64,000 nt of DNA, from positions 3,596,001 through 3,660,000 of the forward strand of contig CP063848.1 in assembly GCA_015277795.1 (NCBI GenBank), read 5' to 3'. Below are positions 9,553-33,460 of this stretch, piece after piece. The notes under the pieces were generated by a model. The model was not told the origin of the DNA, made no database searches, and saw nothing but the letters and a program-made list of their open reading frames with translations. Numbering within the stretch: position 1 is the stretch's first letter; every line of letters starts with the position of its first letter. The stretch is from Massilia sp. UMI-21. Its GTDB lineage: Bacteria > Pseudomonadota > Gammaproteobacteria > Burkholderiales > Burkholderiaceae_D. The translations under genes were made by a program, and so were the position numbers.

Positions 9553-12423
9553 GTGACACCCACTGAACCCATGCTTGCCTTCCTGTCGAACGGCGGCGCC
9601 ACCGGCGCCCGGATCCATGCCCACGACTGGGACACCCATCCGCTCGGGCCGATTCCGTCCTGGCCGGCCGCGCTGCGCACCGCGCTCGGCATCGTGCTCG
9701 GCGCGTCCTTTCCGACCTTCCTGGCCTGGGCTCCGCGCTTCGACCTGTTCTACAACGACGCCTACGTACCGCTGCTCGGGAACAAGGCAAGCGATGCGCT
9801 CGGCCAGCCCATGCCCGAGGTCTGGAGCGAGGTGTGGGACTCGGTCGGCCCCTATGCCCGCCGCGTGCTGGAGGGCGAATCCTTCGTGTTCGAGAACTTC
9901 GCCACCACGCTCGAGCGCCATGGCTACCCGGAACAGGCCTGGTTCACCTTCTCGTACAGCCCGGTGCGCGACGACGACGGCGTGGTGCGCGGAATGATCT
10001 GCACCGTCATCGAGGTCACCGACCGGGTGCGCGCGCTGGCGCAGCACAAGCAGGCGGAGGAACGCCTTGCGCTTTCGCTCGAAGCGTCCGGCAACATCGG
10101 CACCTGGTCCTACGACCTCGACACCGCCGCCACCCATGTCGACGAACGCTTCGCGCGCCTGTTCCAGGTCGAGGCCGCCCTGGCCCGCGAGGGCACCGAA
10201 CTGGTGCGCTTCACCGACATGATCCACCCGAGCGACCGCCCGGCCGTACTGGAAGCGATCGACCACGCGATCCTCACCGAGTCGCTGTACGACGTCGAGT
10301 ACCGGATCCCGCAGCGCTCCGGCCTGGACGTGTGGGTCAATGCGCGCGGCAAGGTGTTCGCCAATGCCGAAACCGGCGGACGGCGCTTTGCCGGCATCGC
10401 GGTGGACATCACCGACCGCAAGCGCGCCGAACAGGCCAGAATCGACAGTGAACGCCAGGCCCTGGCCGCCTCGCGGCGGGCCGACGAAAGCGCGCGCCGG
10501 CTCGACGTGCTGCTCGACGCGGCGCCGGTGGGCATCGTCTACGCCGACGCGGCCGGGCGCCTGCAGCTGGCCAACGCCTCCAACCGCCGGATCTGGGGCG
10601 CGCATCCGCACCGCGCCACGGTCGAGGAATATGGCGAATGGAAGGGCTGGTGGCCCGCCGGTTCGGACCGCGCCGGGCAGCGCGTGCTGGCGCACGAATG
10701 GCCGATCGCGCACGCGCTCGGCGGCGTCGACCAGGCCGGCGGCGTGTTCGAGATCGAACCCTTCGACAGCCCCGGCGTGCGCCGCACCATCCTGGTGCAG
10801 GCGGCCGCCATCCGTGACCGCGACGGCGCCATGGCTGGCGCGGTGGCCGCCAACATGGACATCACGGCCCAGGTCGCGGCCGAGCATGCGATGAAGGACA
10901 GCGAAGCCAAGTTCCGCCTGATCGCCAACGTCATTCCGCAGATGGTCTGGTCGGCCGATGCCGGTGGCCGTAGCGACTACGTGAATACCCGCTGGTCGGA
11001 GTTCACCGGCGTGCCGGAGCAACGCATCGCAGGCGACGGCTGGGCCGACATCGTCCACCCGGACGACCTGCCGGAACTGCGCGCGCGCTGGGGCCACAGC
11101 GTGGCCACCGGCGAGCCCTTCGAGGTCGAACACCGGCTGGTCCACCGGTCGGGCGAATACCGCTGGGTGCTCAACCGTGCGCTGCCCTCGCTCGACGAGG
11201 CGGGCAAGCCGACCCGCTGGATGGGCACCCTGACCGACATCCACGACAAGAAGACCGGCGAAGACGAGCTGCGCGCGCAGGCGCGCCGCAAGGACGAATT
11301 CCTGGCGATGCTCGCGCACGAACTGCGCAACCCGCTGGCGCCGATCAGCAATGCGGCCCAGCTGCTGGCCATGAGCACGCTCGACCCGCAGCGCGTGCGC
11401 CAGTCGAGCGAGGTGATCATCCGCCAGGTGCGCCACATGACCTCGCTCGTGGACGACCTGCTCGACGTCTCGCGCGTGACGCGCGGCCTGGTGGAACTGG
11501 AACGCGAGCGCGTCGATATCAAGTCGGTGGTGGCCAGCGCGGTCGAGCAGGCGCGCCCGCTGATCGAGGCGCGCGGCCATGCGCTCGACCAGCACATGGT
11601 GTCGCGCCGCTGCTGGGTACGGGGCGACCGCATCCGCCTGGTGCAGGTGGTCGTCAACCTGCTCAACAACGCGGCCAAGTACACCGGCCAGGGCGGCACC
11701 ATCGCGCTGTCGGTCGATGCGGATGCCGGCAATGTGACGATCGCGGTGCGCGACAACGGCATCGGCATCGACCGCGCCATGCTGCCGCACGTGTTCGGCC
11801 TGTTCACCCAGGCCGAGCGCACCCCCGACCGCTCCCAGGGCGGCCTGGGGCTGGGCCTGGCCCTGGTGCACAGCCTGGTGCAACTGCACGGCGGCCGGGT
11901 CGTGGCGCACAGCCAGGGCTTGGGCATGGGCAGCACCTTCACGGTGACCTTGCCGGTCGTCGACGGCGCCGCCGGCACGGCCGCGGGCGGGCCCGGGCCG
12001 GCCGCTTCCCCCGCCGCAGCGGCCGGCCCGGGCGCGGGCCGCCGCATCCTGGTGGTCGACGACAATATCGACGCGGCGCTGTCGCTGGCCGAGGTGCTGC
12101 GCTCGCTGGGCCATACGGTGGCAAGCGCGCACGATTCGCACGCGGCGCTGGCCCAGGCCCGCGCCGCGCGGCCCGACATCTACATCCTCGACATCGGCCT
12201 GCCCGACATCGACGGCTACGCCCTGGCGCGCCGCCTGCGCGAGGACGCGGATACCGGCCGCGCGACCCTGATCGCCCTTACCGGCTATGGCCAGTCGCAC
12301 GACCGGGTGCTGGCCAGGTCCGCCGGCTTCGACCACCATTTCGTCAAGCCGGTCGACCTGGCGGCCCTTGTGGAGACCATCGACGCCGCCAACCCGCTGC
12401 GGGCCGACTGCGGCAAGTTGTGA
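9553..12423 (+). CDS. PAS-domain hybrid sensor histidine kinase/response regulator
   Basis: A 956-residue soluble hybrid kinase. Four PAS-like sensory modules follow each other (about 15-155, 170-295, 318-445 and 455-575; the second and fourth end in clear PAC segments). Then come a HisKA domain with the phospho-acceptor in [13 protein letters not shown] (His589), an HATPase domain with [15 protein letters not shown] and GGLGLGLAL, an Ala/Gly/Pro-rich linker and a C-terminal receiver with RILVVDDN and the phospho-Asp in ILDIGLPD (Asp880). There is no transmembrane segment, so the signal is intracellular. The GTG start is used; an in-frame ATG six codons on is an alternative. No partner regulator is adjacent, so the output is unknown. 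Confidence 0.93.
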
Positions 12424-28382: not shown

Positions 28383-28508
28383 TGCGGTGGCCCTGGGCGC
28401 CGCGGGTTTGGTCGCGGGACGCGGCTGAGCACCGTCGTCCTGCGACAATGCACAATTGCGGGACCGCGAAAAGATCGAGAAGGGTTTAATATACCGCGAC
28501 TGTGCGGA

Positions 28509-28532
28509 AATCAATGCTACCGAGCATTGATT
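28509..28532 (+). promoter_or_regulatory. Perfect 10-bp inverted repeat upstream of the helicase-nuclease gene
   Basis: AATCAATGCT-ACCG-AGCATTGATT: perfect arms with a 4-nt centre, 91 bp before the ATG. There is no T-run after it, so it is a poor Rho-independent terminator for the permease; an operator or a leader hairpin is more likely. A TTTAATATA stretch just upstream (28486-28494) could be a -10 region. The remaining gap 28383-28623 shows nothing else. Confidence 0.5.
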
Positions 28533-28623
28533 GCTGAGAATATGTCGTTTGCAGCGTGTCGTTCTCGGCGAACAAGGCTTCCGCAACGCTCAACCCCTAC
28601 CCGATCACCCGCTTGACACCAAC

Positions 28624-31600
28624 ATGCAATCCCCTGCCCAGCTCATGAGCGGGCTGCTCGACTATCTGGTCGAGCAAGCCAAAGACATCGATCCTGCAGC
28701 TTTTACACTGTCGAAGCTCACCGACTTCAAGAAGACCCGCGCCGACCTGGAGACGCTGCCCTGGGTCGACTTCAACGTCGACACCGATGGGGAACCCATT
28801 TGGCTGCGGGTGCATCGCCTGGAGGCGACCCGCGCACCGTCCCTGGCGCAGCCCGAGCTGGCGCCCTTCCTGGCGATCGGCGACGACCCGGCCGGCAGGC
28901 CGCCGGCATTGAAGGAGGCTTCGCTGGCGAGCGTCCGCAACGAGGACGCCGGCATGGTCGGCGACGAAGAGGCCGGGCAGCGCGATGAGCAGCGCCGGGC
29001 ACGGGTCGGACGCCTGCTGGACGTCTACACGCAGCAATGGAACGACTGGGCCATGCGCGAGCGACCGCGCCGCCAGGTGATCGCGCTCTACGCGGACCTG
29101 TTTGCATTGAAGACCCGCCTGGAATCCGAAGAGGCGGTGCGCCCGATCGAGCTGGTCTGGGGCATGGGTGTCTCGTCGTGGCGCGTTGCCGGCGCCGATC
29201 AGTCCGGGTCGGCGGCGTGCGCCGACTTCCATTACCCCTTGCTCACCCAGGCTGTCGAGCTCGACATCGACAACACCAGCCACGCAATCAGCCTGCGTCC
29301 GCGCCAGAAGGCGCCGCGCCTGGAATTCGACGCCTTCGCCGCCTGCGCCGTCCCCGGCATCGGCGATGTCGAGCGCGCCGCGCGTTCCCTGTTGCGCGAA
29401 CGTCCGGACATTGCCGTCTCGCCCTTCGACCCGACCACGGTCGAACCGATCCTGGGCCTGGTTGCCGGCAATCTCGCCGCATCGGCACGCTATGACCGTG
29501 AAGCCGGGACAGCGCCGGCGCCCGGCGACGCGCTGGTGGTGACGAACCAGTGGGTCGTGTTCGCCCGTCCGCGCGCCAGCCATTTCCTGATCGACGACAT
29601 CGCGCGCCTGAAGGAGCGCGTCAGCGCCGGCGACCCCATTCCCGCCGGCCCGCTCGGCATCGTCACGCCGCCCGGCGAGGCCGTGATCGAGCACGCGCCG
29701 ATTGCCTTCCGTGGACTGTCTGGCCGTGCGAGCACGAGGGGCGAAGCGCGCGAGCTGTATTTTCCGCTGCCCTACAACCGCGAACAGGAGACGATCGTCC
29801 AGCAGCTCGGGCGCGCCGCGGGCGTGGCCGTCCAGGGCCCGCCCGGCACCGGCAAGACTCATACGATCGCCAACATCATCAGTCACTACCTGGCGCTGGG
29901 AAAGCGGATCCTGGTGACCTCGAAGGGCGAGCCGGCCCTCAAGGTCTTGCAAGAGAAGATCCCCGCATCGATCCGGCCCTTGAGCGTCGCACTGCTGTCC
30001 GGCGACAAGGAAGGCATGCGCCAGTTCCAGGCGTCGATCGAGGCAATCATCCACACCCTGACCCACCTGAATCCGCAGATGGAAGAGGAAGCCATCGCGA
30101 CATGCCGCGCTGCGCTCGACCGCGCGCACGAAGAGATGGCGCGGATCGACACGCGGATCGACGACATCGCCCGCGCCCATCTGACCGAGCTCGACGTCGA
30201 CGGCGTTCCGATGCGGGCCCAGAAGATGGCCGAGCTGGTGATCCACGGCCAGGCACTGTACGGCTGGTTCGACGACGGCTTGTCGCTGGCCGCGGAGCAC
30301 GCGCCGCCATTCGGCGACGAGGCCGGCATGCGCTTGCGCGACGCGCGGCGCCGGCTCGGGCCCGACCTCGCGTACTGTCATGCCAGCATCCCGGCGTCGG
30401 GCGCCCTGCCCCAGCCCACCGAGCTCGGACGCCTGCATGAGGTGCTGCAAACGGTGCGCGACATCGAGCGCGACGAGGCAAGCGGTGTGCTGCCGCCCTT
30501 GCGTGCCGCCACGCCCGAGGTGCTCGGCCATGCCCGCCGGCTGCTTGCGGCGCTGGACGCGGCCAGCGCCCTGGTGCGCGAACTCGAGGAGTGCGGGCAT
30601 GCGTGGGTATTTCCCCTGCGCGAGAAATGCCGGCGCGCCGACTTCGCCACGGAACGCGCCTCGCTCGAAGCACTGTTCTCGGAAATGGATGCGCTGCTGC
30701 AGGCCCGGGCCGAGTTCATGCAAAGGCCGGTGACGGCGCCGCGCGAAGCACTGGAGCAAGCGAAAGCGCTGGAAGCCATCGCGCGCGGCGCGCAGTCCGG
30801 CAAACCCTTCGGCTTGCTGGCCTTTGGCGTGGGCGACGTCAAGCCGCACATCGGCGCCATCCGCGTCGCCGGCCTGGCGCCCGCTTCCAGCGCGGACTGG
30901 GCACACGTGCAGCGCTTCGCGGCCCTGCACACGCGCCTGCTGTCCTTCGTGGTGCGCTGGAATGCGTTTGCCGAACTGCTCTCGCTTCCCCCCTTGCAGC
31001 CGGACGTCGGGCAACTGCGCACGACCGAACAGATCGCCCTGGCCGCACGCCGGGCCCATACCCTGGCGACGACGCACGATCGCATGCTGCCGGGCCTGGC
31101 CGAACCGGTGTTCGCCAGGGTGCCCGACAAGGACCTGCTGGGGCGGCACGCCGACCTGGCGCGGGTCCGCGAACACCTGCGCCGCCACCTGACGCGGGCG
31201 GAACTGGCGGAGGCGACGACGAGCCTGTCCACCTTGCGTGAGCAGCTGGCCGGCACGAGCGGCCCTGTTTCGGACCAGCTGCGCCGCCTGGTCGACGCTG
31301 TGCTGGGCAGTGCAGACCTGCCCGCCGAAAGCATCGTGTCCGACTACGCCGCGATCGTTGCCGAGATCCGCCGCGTCGAGTCGCTGTCATCGGTCTTCGC
31401 CACCGTACGCCAGCTGGCCGGCGACATCGAGCGTCATGGGGCGCCGCGCCTGGCCGCGCGCGTGCTGTCGGTGCCGGTCGACGCCGTCGGTGACGACGCG
31501 AGCTTCCCGGTGCACTGGCGCGATGCCTGGACCTGGGCACGCCTCAAGACCCACCTCGACGCCATCGATGGCCGCGACGAAATGCGCAGTCTCGCGGCAC

Positions 31601-33201
31601 GCCGGCGCGATCTCGAGAAGGGCCTGGCGCGCCTGTACGAAACCCTGGTCTCGAAATCGGCCTGGCTCGCTACACGGCGCAACGCCGGCCAGAACGTGCT
31701 GACGGCGCTCGAAACCTATCGCATCGCCATGCGCAAGATCGGCAAGGGCACCGGCGTCAACGCGGCCCGCTACCGCCGCGACGCCCAGCAGGCGATGGTC
31801 GACGCGCAGGCGGCCGTCCCCTGCTGGATCATGAGCCATGCCCGTGTGTCGGAATCCTTGCCGGCCACGCTGGGCGCCTTCGACCTGGTAATCGTCGACG
31901 AGGCAAGCCAGTCCGACCTGTGGGCCCTTCCCGCCGTCCTGCGCGGCAAACAGATTCTCGTCGTCGGCGACGACAAGCAGGTCTCGCCGGAAGCCGGCTT
32001 CGTTTCGGCGGCCAAGATCGTCGACCTGCGCCGGCGCTTCCTGGCCGGCCAGCCATTCGAAGCGGTACTCACTGCCGACATGTCGCTGTACGACATCGCC
32101 TCCTCGGTGTTTGCCGCGTCACGGGTCATGCTGCGCGAGCATTTCCGCTGTGTGCAGCCGATCATCGCCTACAGCAACCGGGTGTTCTACAAGGACTTCA
32201 TCCAGCCGCTGCGCATCCCCAAGGCCTCCGAGCGGCTCGACCCGCCGCTCGTCGACGTCTTCGTCGCCAACGGTTACCGCAACGCCAAGTCCCAGAACCC
32301 GCCGGAAGCCGAGTTCATCGCAGCCGAGATCGAAGCGATCATCCGGGACCCGGCGATGCGCCATCGCACGCTCGGCGTGGTATCGCTGCTCGGCCCGGAG
32401 CAGGCGCAATGGATCGACCGGCTGGTGCGTTCGCGTTGCGACGCGGCGGAGCTCGCGCGCCGCAACTTCGCGTGTGGCGACGCGCGTATCTTCCAGGGCA
32501 GCGAACGCGATATCGTGTTCCTGAGCATGGTGGCCGACAGCGCGAATCACCATGCGCTGTCCGGCCTGCAGTATGACCAGCGCTTCAACGTCGCCGCATC
32601 CCGTGCGCGCGACCGCATGATCCTGGTGCGCTCGGTCCGGCTGGAAGAACTGTCCACCCTCGACCTGCGGCGCACGCTGGTCGAACATTTCGCCAGGCCG
32701 GTGGAGAGCAATGACGAGGCCAGCAGCCTGATCGCCCTGTGCGAGTCCGGTTTCGAACGCGACGTCTACACCGAACTGTTCCAGCGTGGCTACCGTGTCA
32801 TTCCGCAGGTGCCGGCGGCGGGCTACCGCATCGACATGGTGGTCGAGGGCGCGGACGACCGGCGCCTGGCGATCGAGCTCGATGGTGACGCGTTCCACGG
32901 ACCGGACAGGTGGGCAGCCGACATGGGCCGCCAGCGCGTGCTGGAACGCGCCGGATGGATTTTCTGGCGTTGTTTCGCTTCGACCTGGTCGCTGCAGCGC
33001 GAAACCGTCCTTGCCGAATTGCTCGCGCAACTAGGGAAAATGGGAATCGAGCCGCTCGGTGCACTCGAGCGCATCCCGTCGCTGGTCGAGTACCGCGAGT
33101 GGGGACGAGAAGCCGATGCAGGAAGCGATGACGCTGCGAGCAACATGCTCGACGCGCTCGTTGCCGGAAACGTGAACGATACGACAATGGCAGTCCGTTA
33201 G
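28624..33201 (+). CDS. SF1 (UPF1/DNA2-like) helicase with C-terminal Vsr/DUF559-like nuclease; candidate defence protein
   Basis: A 1525-residue protein. Residues 1-390 are a family-specific N-terminal region with no motif I recognise. The helicase core follows: Walker A GPPGTGKTHT (about 405), a long mostly helical insertion of roughly 650 residues, Walker B LVIVDEASQSD (about 1090), motif III GDDKQVSP (1115), LREHFRC, FQGSERDIVFLSMV and motif VI NVAASRARDRM (about 1322). The C-terminus (about 1380-1470) has the layout of Vsr/DUF559 PD-(D/E)xK nucleases: YRIDMVVEG, AIELDGDAFHG, then W-x-D-x-x-RQ and a GWIFWR strand. Helicase-Vsr proteins are known as single-gene anti-phage systems and this one stands alone beside a tRNA array. 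The ATG at 28624 is preferred to an upstream TTG. The defence role is inferred. Confidence 0.85.
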   Translation: MQSPAQLMSGLLDYLVEQAKDIDPAAFTLSKLTDFKKTRADLETLPWVDFNVDTDGEPIWLRVHRLEATRAPSLAQPELAPFLAIGDDPAGRPPALKEASLASVRNEDAGMVGDEEAGQRDEQRRARVGRLLDVYTQQWNDWAMRERPRRQVIALYADLFALKTRLESEEAVRPIELVWGMGVSSWRVAGADQSGSAACADFHYPLLTQAVELDIDNTSHAISLRPRQKAPRLEFDAFAACAVPGIGDVERAARSLLRERPDIAVSPFDPTTVEPILGLVAGNLAASARYDREAGTAPAPGDALVVTNQWVVFARPRASHFLIDDIARLKERVSAGDPIPAGPLGIVTPPGEAVIEHAPIAFRGLSGRASTRGEARELYFPLPYNREQETIVQQLGRAAGVAVQGPPGTGKTHTIANIISHYLALGKRILVTSKGEPALKVLQEKIPASIRPLSVALLSGDKEGMRQFQASIEAIIHTLTHLNPQMEEEAIATCRAALDRAHEEMARIDTRIDDIARAHLTELDVDGVPMRAQKMAELVIHGQALYGWFDDGLSLAAEHAPPFGDEAGMRLRDARRRLGPDLAYCHASIPASGALPQPTELGRLHEVLQTVRDIERDEASGVLPPLRAATPEVLGHARRLLAALDAASALVRELEECGHAWVFPLREKCRRADFATERASLEALFSEMDALLQARAEFMQRPVTAPREALEQAKALEAIARGAQSGKPFGLLAFGVGDVKPHIGAIRVAGLAPASSADWAHVQRFAALHTRLLSFVVRWNAFAELLSLPPLQPDVGQLRTTEQIALAARRAHTLATTHDRMLPGLAEPVFARVPDKDLLGRHADLARVREHLRRHLTRAELAEATTSLSTLREQLAGTSGPVSDQLRRLVDAVLGSADLPAESIVSDYAAIVAEIRRVESLSSVFATVRQLAGDIERHGAPRLAARVLSVPVDAVGDDASFPVHWRDAWTWARLKTHLDAIDGRDEMRSLAARRRDLEKGLARLYETLVSKSAWLATRRNAGQNVLTALETYRIAMRKIGKGTGVNAARYRRDAQQAMVDAQAAVPCWIMSHARVSESLPATLGAFDLVIVDEASQSDLWALPAVLRGKQILVVGDDKQVSPEAGFVSAAKIVDLRRRFLAGQPFEAVLTADMSLYDIASSVFAASRVMLREHFRCVQPIIAYSNRVFYKDFIQPLRIPKASERLDPPLVDVFVANGYRNAKSQNPPEAEFIAAEIEAIIRDPAMRHRTLGVVSLLGPEQAQWIDRLVRSRCDAAELARRNFACGDARIFQGSERDIVFLSMVADSANHHALSGLQYDQRFNVAASRARDRMILVRSVRLEELSTLDLRRTLVEHFARPVESNDEASSLIALCESGFERDVYTELFQRGYRVIPQVPAAGYRIDMVVEGADDRRLAIELDGDAFHGPDRWAADMGRQRVLERAGWIFWRCFASTWSLQRETVLAELLAQLGKMGIEPLGALERIPSLVEYREWGREADAGSDDAASNMLDALVAGNVNDTTMAVR

Positions 33202-33386: not shown

Positions 33387-33460
33387 TGGAGGCGAGGACG
33401 GGAGTCGAACCCGTCTAGACGGCTTTGCAGGCCGCTGCATAACCGCTTTGCTACCTCGCC
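33387..33460 (-). tRNA. tRNA-Cys (GCA), CCA encoded
   Basis: 74 nt including the encoded CCA. The acceptor stem GGCGAGG/CCTCGCC pairs perfectly, the anticodon loop CTGCAAA gives GCA, and the T arm contains GGTTCGACTCC. It is the last gene of the tRNA array, as cysT is after glyW in E. coli. Confidence 0.97.

Follow-up and report, generated by a model that had tools for sequence, protein, structure and literature searches.

A helicase-nuclease gene of Massilia sp. UMI-21, a likely single-gene or plug-in defence enzyme from an unnamed branch beside the DUF4011-type helicase-nucleases

We analysed a stretch of 64,000 nucleotides from Massilia sp. UMI-21 (contig CP063848.1, positions 3,596,001 to 3,660,000; hereafter the window, in whose numbering coordinates are given) for a forward-strand gene at 28624..33201, which encodes a protein of 1525 amino acids joining a superfamily 1 (SF1) helicase to a Vsr-like nuclease. 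Judged by its sequence, the protein is likely a single-gene (or plug-in) defence helicase-nuclease, and it belongs to an unnamed, cross-phylum branch that lies apart from the DUF4011-type helicase-nucleases. We consider it probable that it acts as a single-gene defence enzyme against phages, plasmids or both. We favour defence because of the domains with their invariant catalytic residues, the patchy presence with decay, and the defence genes beside the protein's relatives. The best match in the PADLOC library, the defence candidate PDC-S37, argues in the same direction, as do Nhi and Hna, which are described in passages of PMC12904381 and PMC13381803 as defending cells and responding to the phage single-strand-binding protein (SSB).

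The gene is genuine and under purifying selection, with its enzymatic parts kept. A chance open reading frame (ORF) was ruled out by 3664 homologues at E≤1e-3 among 7995 scored and by the dN/dS values. In codon comparisons of the window gene with four orthologues, dN/dS was 0.15-0.24 overall, 0.05-0.14 in the helicase and nuclease parts and 0.18-0.32 in the N-terminal region and the insert. The frame has no internal stop. A mechanical ORF call extends it upstream to a TTG at 28531 and the database version of the protein has 1518 amino acids; the start MQSPAQLM, or near variants of it, is common to the 14 orthologues compared.

The ORF, Pfam and an alignment of 17 sequences agree on the 1525-residue protein with SF1 helicase motifs that had been proposed from the sequence. 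Its parts follow one another on the forward strand: an N-terminal region (residues 1-380, 28624..29763), the start of the helicase (residues 381-470, 29764..30033, with Walker A at 29836-29859), a long insert between Walker A and Walker B (residues 471-1060, 30034..31803), the rest of the helicase from Walker B to motif VI (residues 1061-1345, 31804..32658), and a Vsr-like MTES_1575 nuclease of the PD-(D/E)xK type (residues 1377-1470, 32752..33033). Pfam places AAA_11 at 384-457 and AAA_12 at 1154-1335. The insert had been estimated at about 650 residues; we found about 590, which is close to that value, with a Walker A to Walker B spacing of 687. The expected Vsr/DUF559-like nuclease was recovered as MTES_1575 (PF18741; E 3.6e-29, 101.1 bits against a curated cut-off of 38.2), and DUF559 matched slightly below its own cut-off. 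As is characteristic of Upf1-like SF1 helicases, Walker A (405-412), Walker B (1092-1095) and motifs III-VI are present. The alignment gives the positions of GDDKQ (1115-1119), EHFR (1172-1175), QGSERD (1291-1296) and ASRARDR (1325-1331). These motifs are invariant or almost so in the 17 sequences, which all keep the nuclease residues E1378, D1404, E1418 and D1420. An E-x-DG pattern, whose place was not checked individually, occurs in 41 of 48 relatives with Walker A; the seven without it include cut or late-starting frames. Among solved structures, Sen1, Upf1, SMUBP-2 and Dna2 come closest to the motor in sequence.

The N-terminal region had been described as free of known motifs and as lacking a DUF4011-type opening. 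The first description holds for Pfam, where all families at E≤1 have their best stretch at residue 384 or beyond, but it does not hold for profile-profile comparison, and the second was not supported. When 39 N-terminal regions were compared with the DUF4011 region by hhalign, residues 158-237 (29095..29334, forward strand; ELVWGMGxxxW...YPLLTQAVELDID) scored 41.5 (E 6e-5, probability 65%), against 25.3 for the best of 200 column shuffles and 14.9 for the reversed profile; six pieces of insert and motor reached at most 16.6. The HHalign probability was 64-65% with the larger alignments and 16% (E 0.0016) with a smaller one. Against the PDB, the N-terminal profile found no more than a weak match (E 0.011). 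The insert (470-1055) likewise matched the DUF4011-type insert, over residues of about 535-775 only, with a score of 46.5 (E 1e-4, probability 54%), where 40 shuffles reached no more than 23.1, and the Walker spacing of 119 DUF4011-type proteins is 624-863. Since both core and insert lie above their controls, the seemingly distinguishing features of the protein look like diverged features of the class, and a reading without DUF4011 was rejected on the strength of the shuffled, reversed and insert-piece controls. By profile likeness the protein thus represents a branch that is deep sister to the DUF4011-helicase-Vsr class, with a remote kinship that extends along its length, because it has a remote DUF4011-like core and a partly shared insert. 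It also has the domain order of the broad class: the remote core, a motor with a long insert and an MTES_1575 nuclease. Pfam finds no DUF4011 in it, whereas four DUF4011-type proteins of the genus do match that family. The C-terminal DUF3320 is absent as well; it is present in four DUF4011-type proteins scanned and is not universal among members of the class.

The suggestion of a separate subfamily was upheld, since the protein falls far under the cut-offs of the Hhe and ProA models and 46 sampled members form one clade against 15 DUF4011-type proteins. In this tree of 61 rows the two groups split with a support of 100/100; the tree program warned of long branches and of uneven composition in some rows, and a motif and length filter had removed seven of 22 chosen DUF4011 rows and five of 43 long family loci. 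The DUF4011 rows were a selection from the best 120 of one search, and genuine Hhe or ProA are therefore not placed in the tree. By record titles the rows span Pseudomonadota, Bacteroidota, Chlorobiota, Planctomycetota, Acidobacteriota, Bacillota and Actinomycetota; those of Chlorobiota, Planctomycetota and Acidobacteriota are metagenome-assembled genomes (MAGs) only and may be misbinned. Two Hymenobacter rows and one from a Chlorobiaceae MAG fall within Pseudomonadota, a placement that suggests transfer of the gene between phyla. Among the relatives the frame exceeds 1300 amino acids in 43 of 51 loci examined (up to 1939), and the Walker A to B spacing, where both motifs are present, is 651-755 residues and mostly near 687. 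Two relatives have a predicted extra C-terminal domain, GreA/GreB-like in a Roseomonas MAG (L101:9830-14797) and arginase-like in Paractinoplanes (L115:9089-14908).

The gene is patchily distributed. The original prediction had it as an accessory gene that stands alone, and full-length orthologues were found in 15 of 62 genomes of the genus, its own included, where it does stand alone; the other copies are 72-87% identical to it. The gene is not at the same place in all relatives, and its neighbours differ. Genome G030 has a remnant of about 320 C-terminal residues (L066:9888-10913), between chemotaxis-like genes and the tRNA block described below, which is a sign of gene loss, and the copy of genome G052 consists of broken pieces with stops. 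In ten further genomes we found distant matches only (30-34% identical over parts of residues 893-1515), eight of which were opened; the four of these that were scanned are DUF4011-MTES_1575-DUF3320 proteins. The remaining 35 genomes gave nothing at E≤1e-20. Of the ten nearest genomes by core proteins, from a comparison of 20 whose gene-lacking members had been picked as near by pgsA, three carry the gene, one a remnant and six neither. In a sample of the order, 30 of 399 genomes (23 of the 346 good ones) match at E≤1e-200, one with a partial copy and one with a stop. A phylum-wide search found the gene in three of 398 genomes, a figure that understates the spread because the cut-off was strict and no more than two candidates were scored in each genome. 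Relatives were also found in 44 plasmid records, 24 of them from Acinetobacter.

Defence genes adjoin many of these relatives, in plasmid as well as genomic loci. We opened 17 of the 44 plasmid records, chosen by ourselves, and 15 were annotated. A defence gene by name occurs in 12 of the 15 contexts, versus none of six control stretches from the same plasmids, which contain no BREX, restriction, Wadjet or Abi gene by name. In all five Acinetobacter plasmids opened, out of 24 Acinetobacter records, the relative follows brxL of a BREX-1 locus after 63 nt. One of these loci has RecQ, DprA and DUF262 genes before pglZ, and pglX was not seen in the stretch shown. The relative that follows brxL has 1576 codons (loci L169, L173, L199, L212 and L213). 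Three sphingomonad plasmids carry a restriction enzyme, two of them also a methyltransferase. On a Variovorax WDL1 plasmid AbiE lies about 6 kb from the relative, and in Variovorax paradoxus a DUF4194 gene and a large ATPase lie near it, a pair that we take to be Wadjet-like; DUF4194 also occurs in a Wadjet locus of Chromobacterium, where the gene starts 115 bp after jetD. TIGR02678-02680 stand near the relative of Streptomyces chartreusis and presumably represent Wadjet type II.

Genomic relatives came from a contig scan, of whose 353 relatives the best 80 were kept. Loci L158, L214 and L218 have type I restriction genes near the relative, and a GmrSD-like gene lies beside L109; L134:6749-9715 was rejected as a restriction subunit, having no Pfam match at 1e-8. 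We scanned 140 of 158 neighbours, the 18 dropped being those of loci L098, L099, L123, L132 and L142 and three very long proteins. They matched 179 PADLOC families, the best 25 of which include JetA, JetC, DrmD, PglZ and type I restriction, each matched by one or two neighbours; JetD is found in the first member. Five contigs of a viral collection also hold relatives. Genes were called on four of them; serine recombinases lie beside L214 and L216, one of which also adjoins an HsdM gene, and type I restriction genes lie beside L214 and L218. With such neighbours the viral-collection contigs may be mobile islands, and L214 and L216 are probably islands of this kind that were filed as viral.

Several observations weigh against a defence role. 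The plasmid contexts are not independent, as five are from Acinetobacter, three from sphingomonads and two from Variovorax; the six control plasmids were taken from those that have defence neighbours; and a Fic protein, a UvrD helicase with a ThiF gene, and GIY-YIG and PD-(D/E)xK nucleases occur in the control stretches themselves. One of the sphingomonad relatives is split by an insertion sequence. In Fusobacteria ZRK30, one of the 12 contexts counted, a single restriction S subunit lies about 6.5 kb from the relative, the Wadjet naming in V. paradoxus and S. chartreusis follows presumed equivalences, and the Deinococcus, Tsukamurella and one of the Streptomyces plasmid contexts have no defence gene by annotation. 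For the neighbours of genomic relatives, Pfam's top list consists largely of ordinary enzymes, and by a reading of neighbours the genus copies, that of the window included, are not in defence islands. Carriage by phages was rejected, as none of 50,697 phage records matched at E≤1e-20, and the literature yielded no activity test of this branch.

The history of the gene within the genus belongs on the same side. Its identity tracks that of four core proteins (Pearson 0.94, Spearman 0.63, 91 pairs among 14 genomes, G024 being left out without the region), and none of 5000 permutations reached the Pearson value. Furthermore, an AI-2E family transporter gene lies upstream of it in the same orientation, at 0.2-41 kb, in seven of the nine genomes that have both on one contig. 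The distance is 0.2 kb in the window, 7.8 kb in G003, 41 kb in G025, 28-34 kb in G039, G009, G040 and G008, and 25 kb for the G030 remnant. The two genes are 0.36 Mb apart in G060 and 1.4 Mb apart in G012, they lie on separate contigs in five genomes, and no match to AI-2E was found in G019. The idea of an unrelated place in each genome was dropped in view of this loose position in seven of nine genomes and at the G030 remnant. By its position and identity tracking the gene seems closer to an old chromosomal gene with frequent losses than to a roaming cassette. We conclude that it has a long history in the genus, in which it was passed on mostly by vertical inheritance or exchange between close relatives, with many losses and some moves.

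For a defence enzyme of this build we propose the following mechanism. The DUF4011-like N-terminal region and the long insert would recognise some trait of foreign DNA or of the way it replicates, with DNA ends, single-stranded intermediates and phage SSB as candidate cues. The SF1 motor would translocate with ATP, and the C-terminal Vsr-like nuclease would then cut the DNA, having been held inactive in the resting cell as passages on Hna report for that enzyme. We infer the defence activity, the substrate, the trigger, the polarity and the auto-inhibition; SSB-type triggering and auto-inhibition are modelled by analogy only on Hna, Nhi and Hachiman. The domain order, the catalytic residues, the selection on the gene, its patchy presence with decay and the defence neighbours of its relatives are observed.

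The same neighbours could be read as signs of an accessory of BREX, Wadjet or restriction systems, in which case the solo copies of the genus would be orphans or act in trans. The identical 63-nt gap after brxL in five Acinetobacter plasmids, including the locus with RecQ, DprA and DUF262, and the recurrence of Wadjet-like and restriction neighbours speak for such a role, but the kind of partner varies (BREX, Wadjet, type I and type III-like restriction), the Acinetobacter cases are closely related to one another, and the 15 genus copies are without an evident adjacent partner, partners elsewhere in these genomes not having been searched. We regard a purely accessory role as unlikely. A mixed case, with a family of helicase-Vsr proteins of about 1500 amino acids acting solo in the genus and elsewhere as a plug-in nuclease for BREX, Wadjet and restriction-modification, we consider doubtful, if somewhat easier to entertain. 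If it held, the relative in Acinetobacter BREX loci would provide a motor-driven nuclease to a system that is said in passages of PMC9122589 to show no nuclease, although a 2025 paper, by its title, reports PglZ to be one that depends on metal (PMC11974810).

A chromosomal repair or recombination enzyme, Dna2- or RecD2-like, that deals with broken forks and is occasionally lost would account for the likeness of the motor to Dna2, Upf1 and SMUBP-2, for a gene identity that follows core proteins and for strong purifying selection on motor and nuclease. However, 47 of 62 genus genomes have no full-length copy and 369 of 399 order genomes no match at E≤1e-200, relatives occur in 44 plasmid records, and BREX, Wadjet-like and restriction genes adjoin them. 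Housekeeping repair was set aside because of this patchy presence (15 of 62 in the genus, 30 of 399 in the order), and a repair enzyme of the occasionally lost kind seems very unlikely to us. It is less probable still, to the point of being remote, that the protein is an effector directed at RNA, an Upf1-like RNA helicase whose attached nuclease would destroy transcripts or tRNAs upon infection. The top solved motors by sequence are indeed the RNA-acting Sen1 and Upf1, but the DNA enzyme Dna2 is also among the motor relatives, and the nuclease belongs to the Vsr/restriction-endonuclease type, which its Pfam name and passages of PMC3710099 describe as a DNase. Defence by a single-gene enzyme remains the reading we prefer.

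In the window the gene is followed, on the reverse strand, by tRNA-Cys (33387-33460) and four tRNA-Gly (to 34026), which are neighbours and not part of the system. To the right of these tRNAs lie pgsA, a PEP-CTERM protein, uvrC, acpS, pdxJ and recO. On the left are the AI-2E family transporter, two TonB-dependent receptors, an Lrp-type regulator, an indolepyruvate-oxidoreductase-like protein (a name read from its POR/DUF6537 domains), a ClC channel and a sulfatase. The window neighbours scanned include no integrase, transposase or defence gene. The region had been called otherwise core, which is right for the side with pgsA, uvrC, acpS, pdxJ and recO (pgsA is in 59 of 62 genus genomes) but not for the left, as the AI-2E gene is in only 37 of 62. 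Elsewhere in the genus the immediate neighbours of the gene form a TerC-like context in six genomes, a YceI/TetR-like one in three and otherwise single cases, these names being read from sequences without a family search.

The tRNA array had been offered as the explanation for the gene's position. The block of pgsA, tRNA-Gly and tRNA-Cys is kept in 20 contexts from other genomes and in G025 and G030, and the sequence beyond tRNA-Cys varies between genomes. In three of the 20 contexts, copies of 45-48 bp of the tRNA-Cys 3' end lie 5-7 kb beyond the block (L068:8426-8470, L078:7748-7792 and L083:6961-7008); extra whole tRNA-Cys-like copies are present in other relatives. These 3' copies make the tRNA-Cys end look like a site of integration in the genus, and one that is used in relatives. 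For the window copy the explanation is weak. No second copy of the tRNA-Cys end is present in the 64 kb and no integrase among the scanned neighbours; the gene does not look like a clean insertion at tRNA-Cys. Only this one of 15 full-length copies adjoins the array; that of G025 is about 16 kb from it and the G030 remnant about 4.4 kb. The decayed copy of G052 lies about 3 kb from an integrase gene with a CP4-like/lambda-type match, which follows an apparent guaA (L067:6083-7309 and 10147-11363), and about 1 kb from a 33-bp stretch that resembles the tRNA-Cys end. The G052 locus is a probable genomic island, and is one sign of mobility.

The forward-strand stretch upstream of the gene (28477..28623, with TTTAATATA at 28485-28493) is alike to that of the G060 gene. 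The resemblance covers about 147 bp and reaches 71.7% over 184 columns, the first 30 coding bases included, and the G060 upstream region in turn resembles that of G019 (73% over 175). This likeness holds though the three genes have different neighbours. Directly, the window matches G019 only at the coding start and G003 in short pieces, and its downstream side matches none of the relatives compared. Just downstream of TTTAATATA and upstream of the gene we read a perfect 10-bp inverted repeat with a 4-nt loop (28509..28532), which is partly kept in two relatives and is a possible operator.

Helicase-nuclease giants are common and poorly understood candidate defence proteins. This branch spans seven phyla, lies below the cut-offs of the Hhe and ProA models, is half covered by PDC-S37 and recurrently adjoins BREX, Wadjet-like and restriction genes. 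The behaviour of one member would tell whether or not it is a stand-alone defence enzyme and whether a nuclease can be borrowed by BREX. Candidates that are now unannotated would come to light with a curated model of the branch.

We found no paper on this protein in the open-licence literature, nor one naming PDC-S37, and the protein is unnamed in passages of PMC3710099, PMC12839542, PMC9122589, PMC12458937, PMC9455709 and PMC10250203. Among named models, PDC-S37 is its best PADLOC match, at 215 bits, and has a similar length; residues 848-1472 of 1525 align with 709-1340 of 1550, a best-aligned stretch that omits the first half of the protein, so that the match is not full-length. We take the PDC-S37 code to denote a single-gene phage-defence candidate. 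The PADLOC library gives no cut-off for it, and six relatives from four phyla score 155-215 bits only, from which PDC-S37 seems to be the model of another branch. ProA (NCBIfam NF058533, 'anti-phage protein ProA') aligns in one stretch that includes the insert (375-1472 with 641-1705 of 1903), but the score is 215 bits against a cut-off of 1500 and the model is 378 positions longer than the protein. Hhe (NCBIfam NF042953 and PADLOC Hhe, a DUF4011 helicase) shares the helicase and nuclease from about residue 1050 on, at 143 bits against a cut-off of 2000; the remote DUF4011-like core and the partial likeness of the insert were measured against DUF4011-type proteins and not against Hhe itself, and Pfam finds no DUF4011 in the window protein. 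Hhe is listed among the SF1/SF2 defence helicases compared in PMC12278908. The giant proteins of the MTES_1575 type, in passages of PMC3710099, likewise fuse an SF1 helicase to the same Vsr-family nuclease, but they also bear HEPN, transglutaminase and wHTH domains, none of which Pfam finds here. With Nhi and Hna the likeness is a functional analogy only, as the Nhi model matched at E 0.034 and no Hna model was among the matches listed. Both nevertheless combine a motor and a nuclease in one protein triggered by phage SSB and, by the accounts given in passages of PMC12904381 and PMC13381803, defend cells as single genes. A response to phage SSB is presumed for Nhi and Hachiman in passages of PMC12904381, and Hna is described in a passage of PMC13381803 as an auto-inhibited exonuclease whose autoinhibited dimer is destabilised by a phage SSB.

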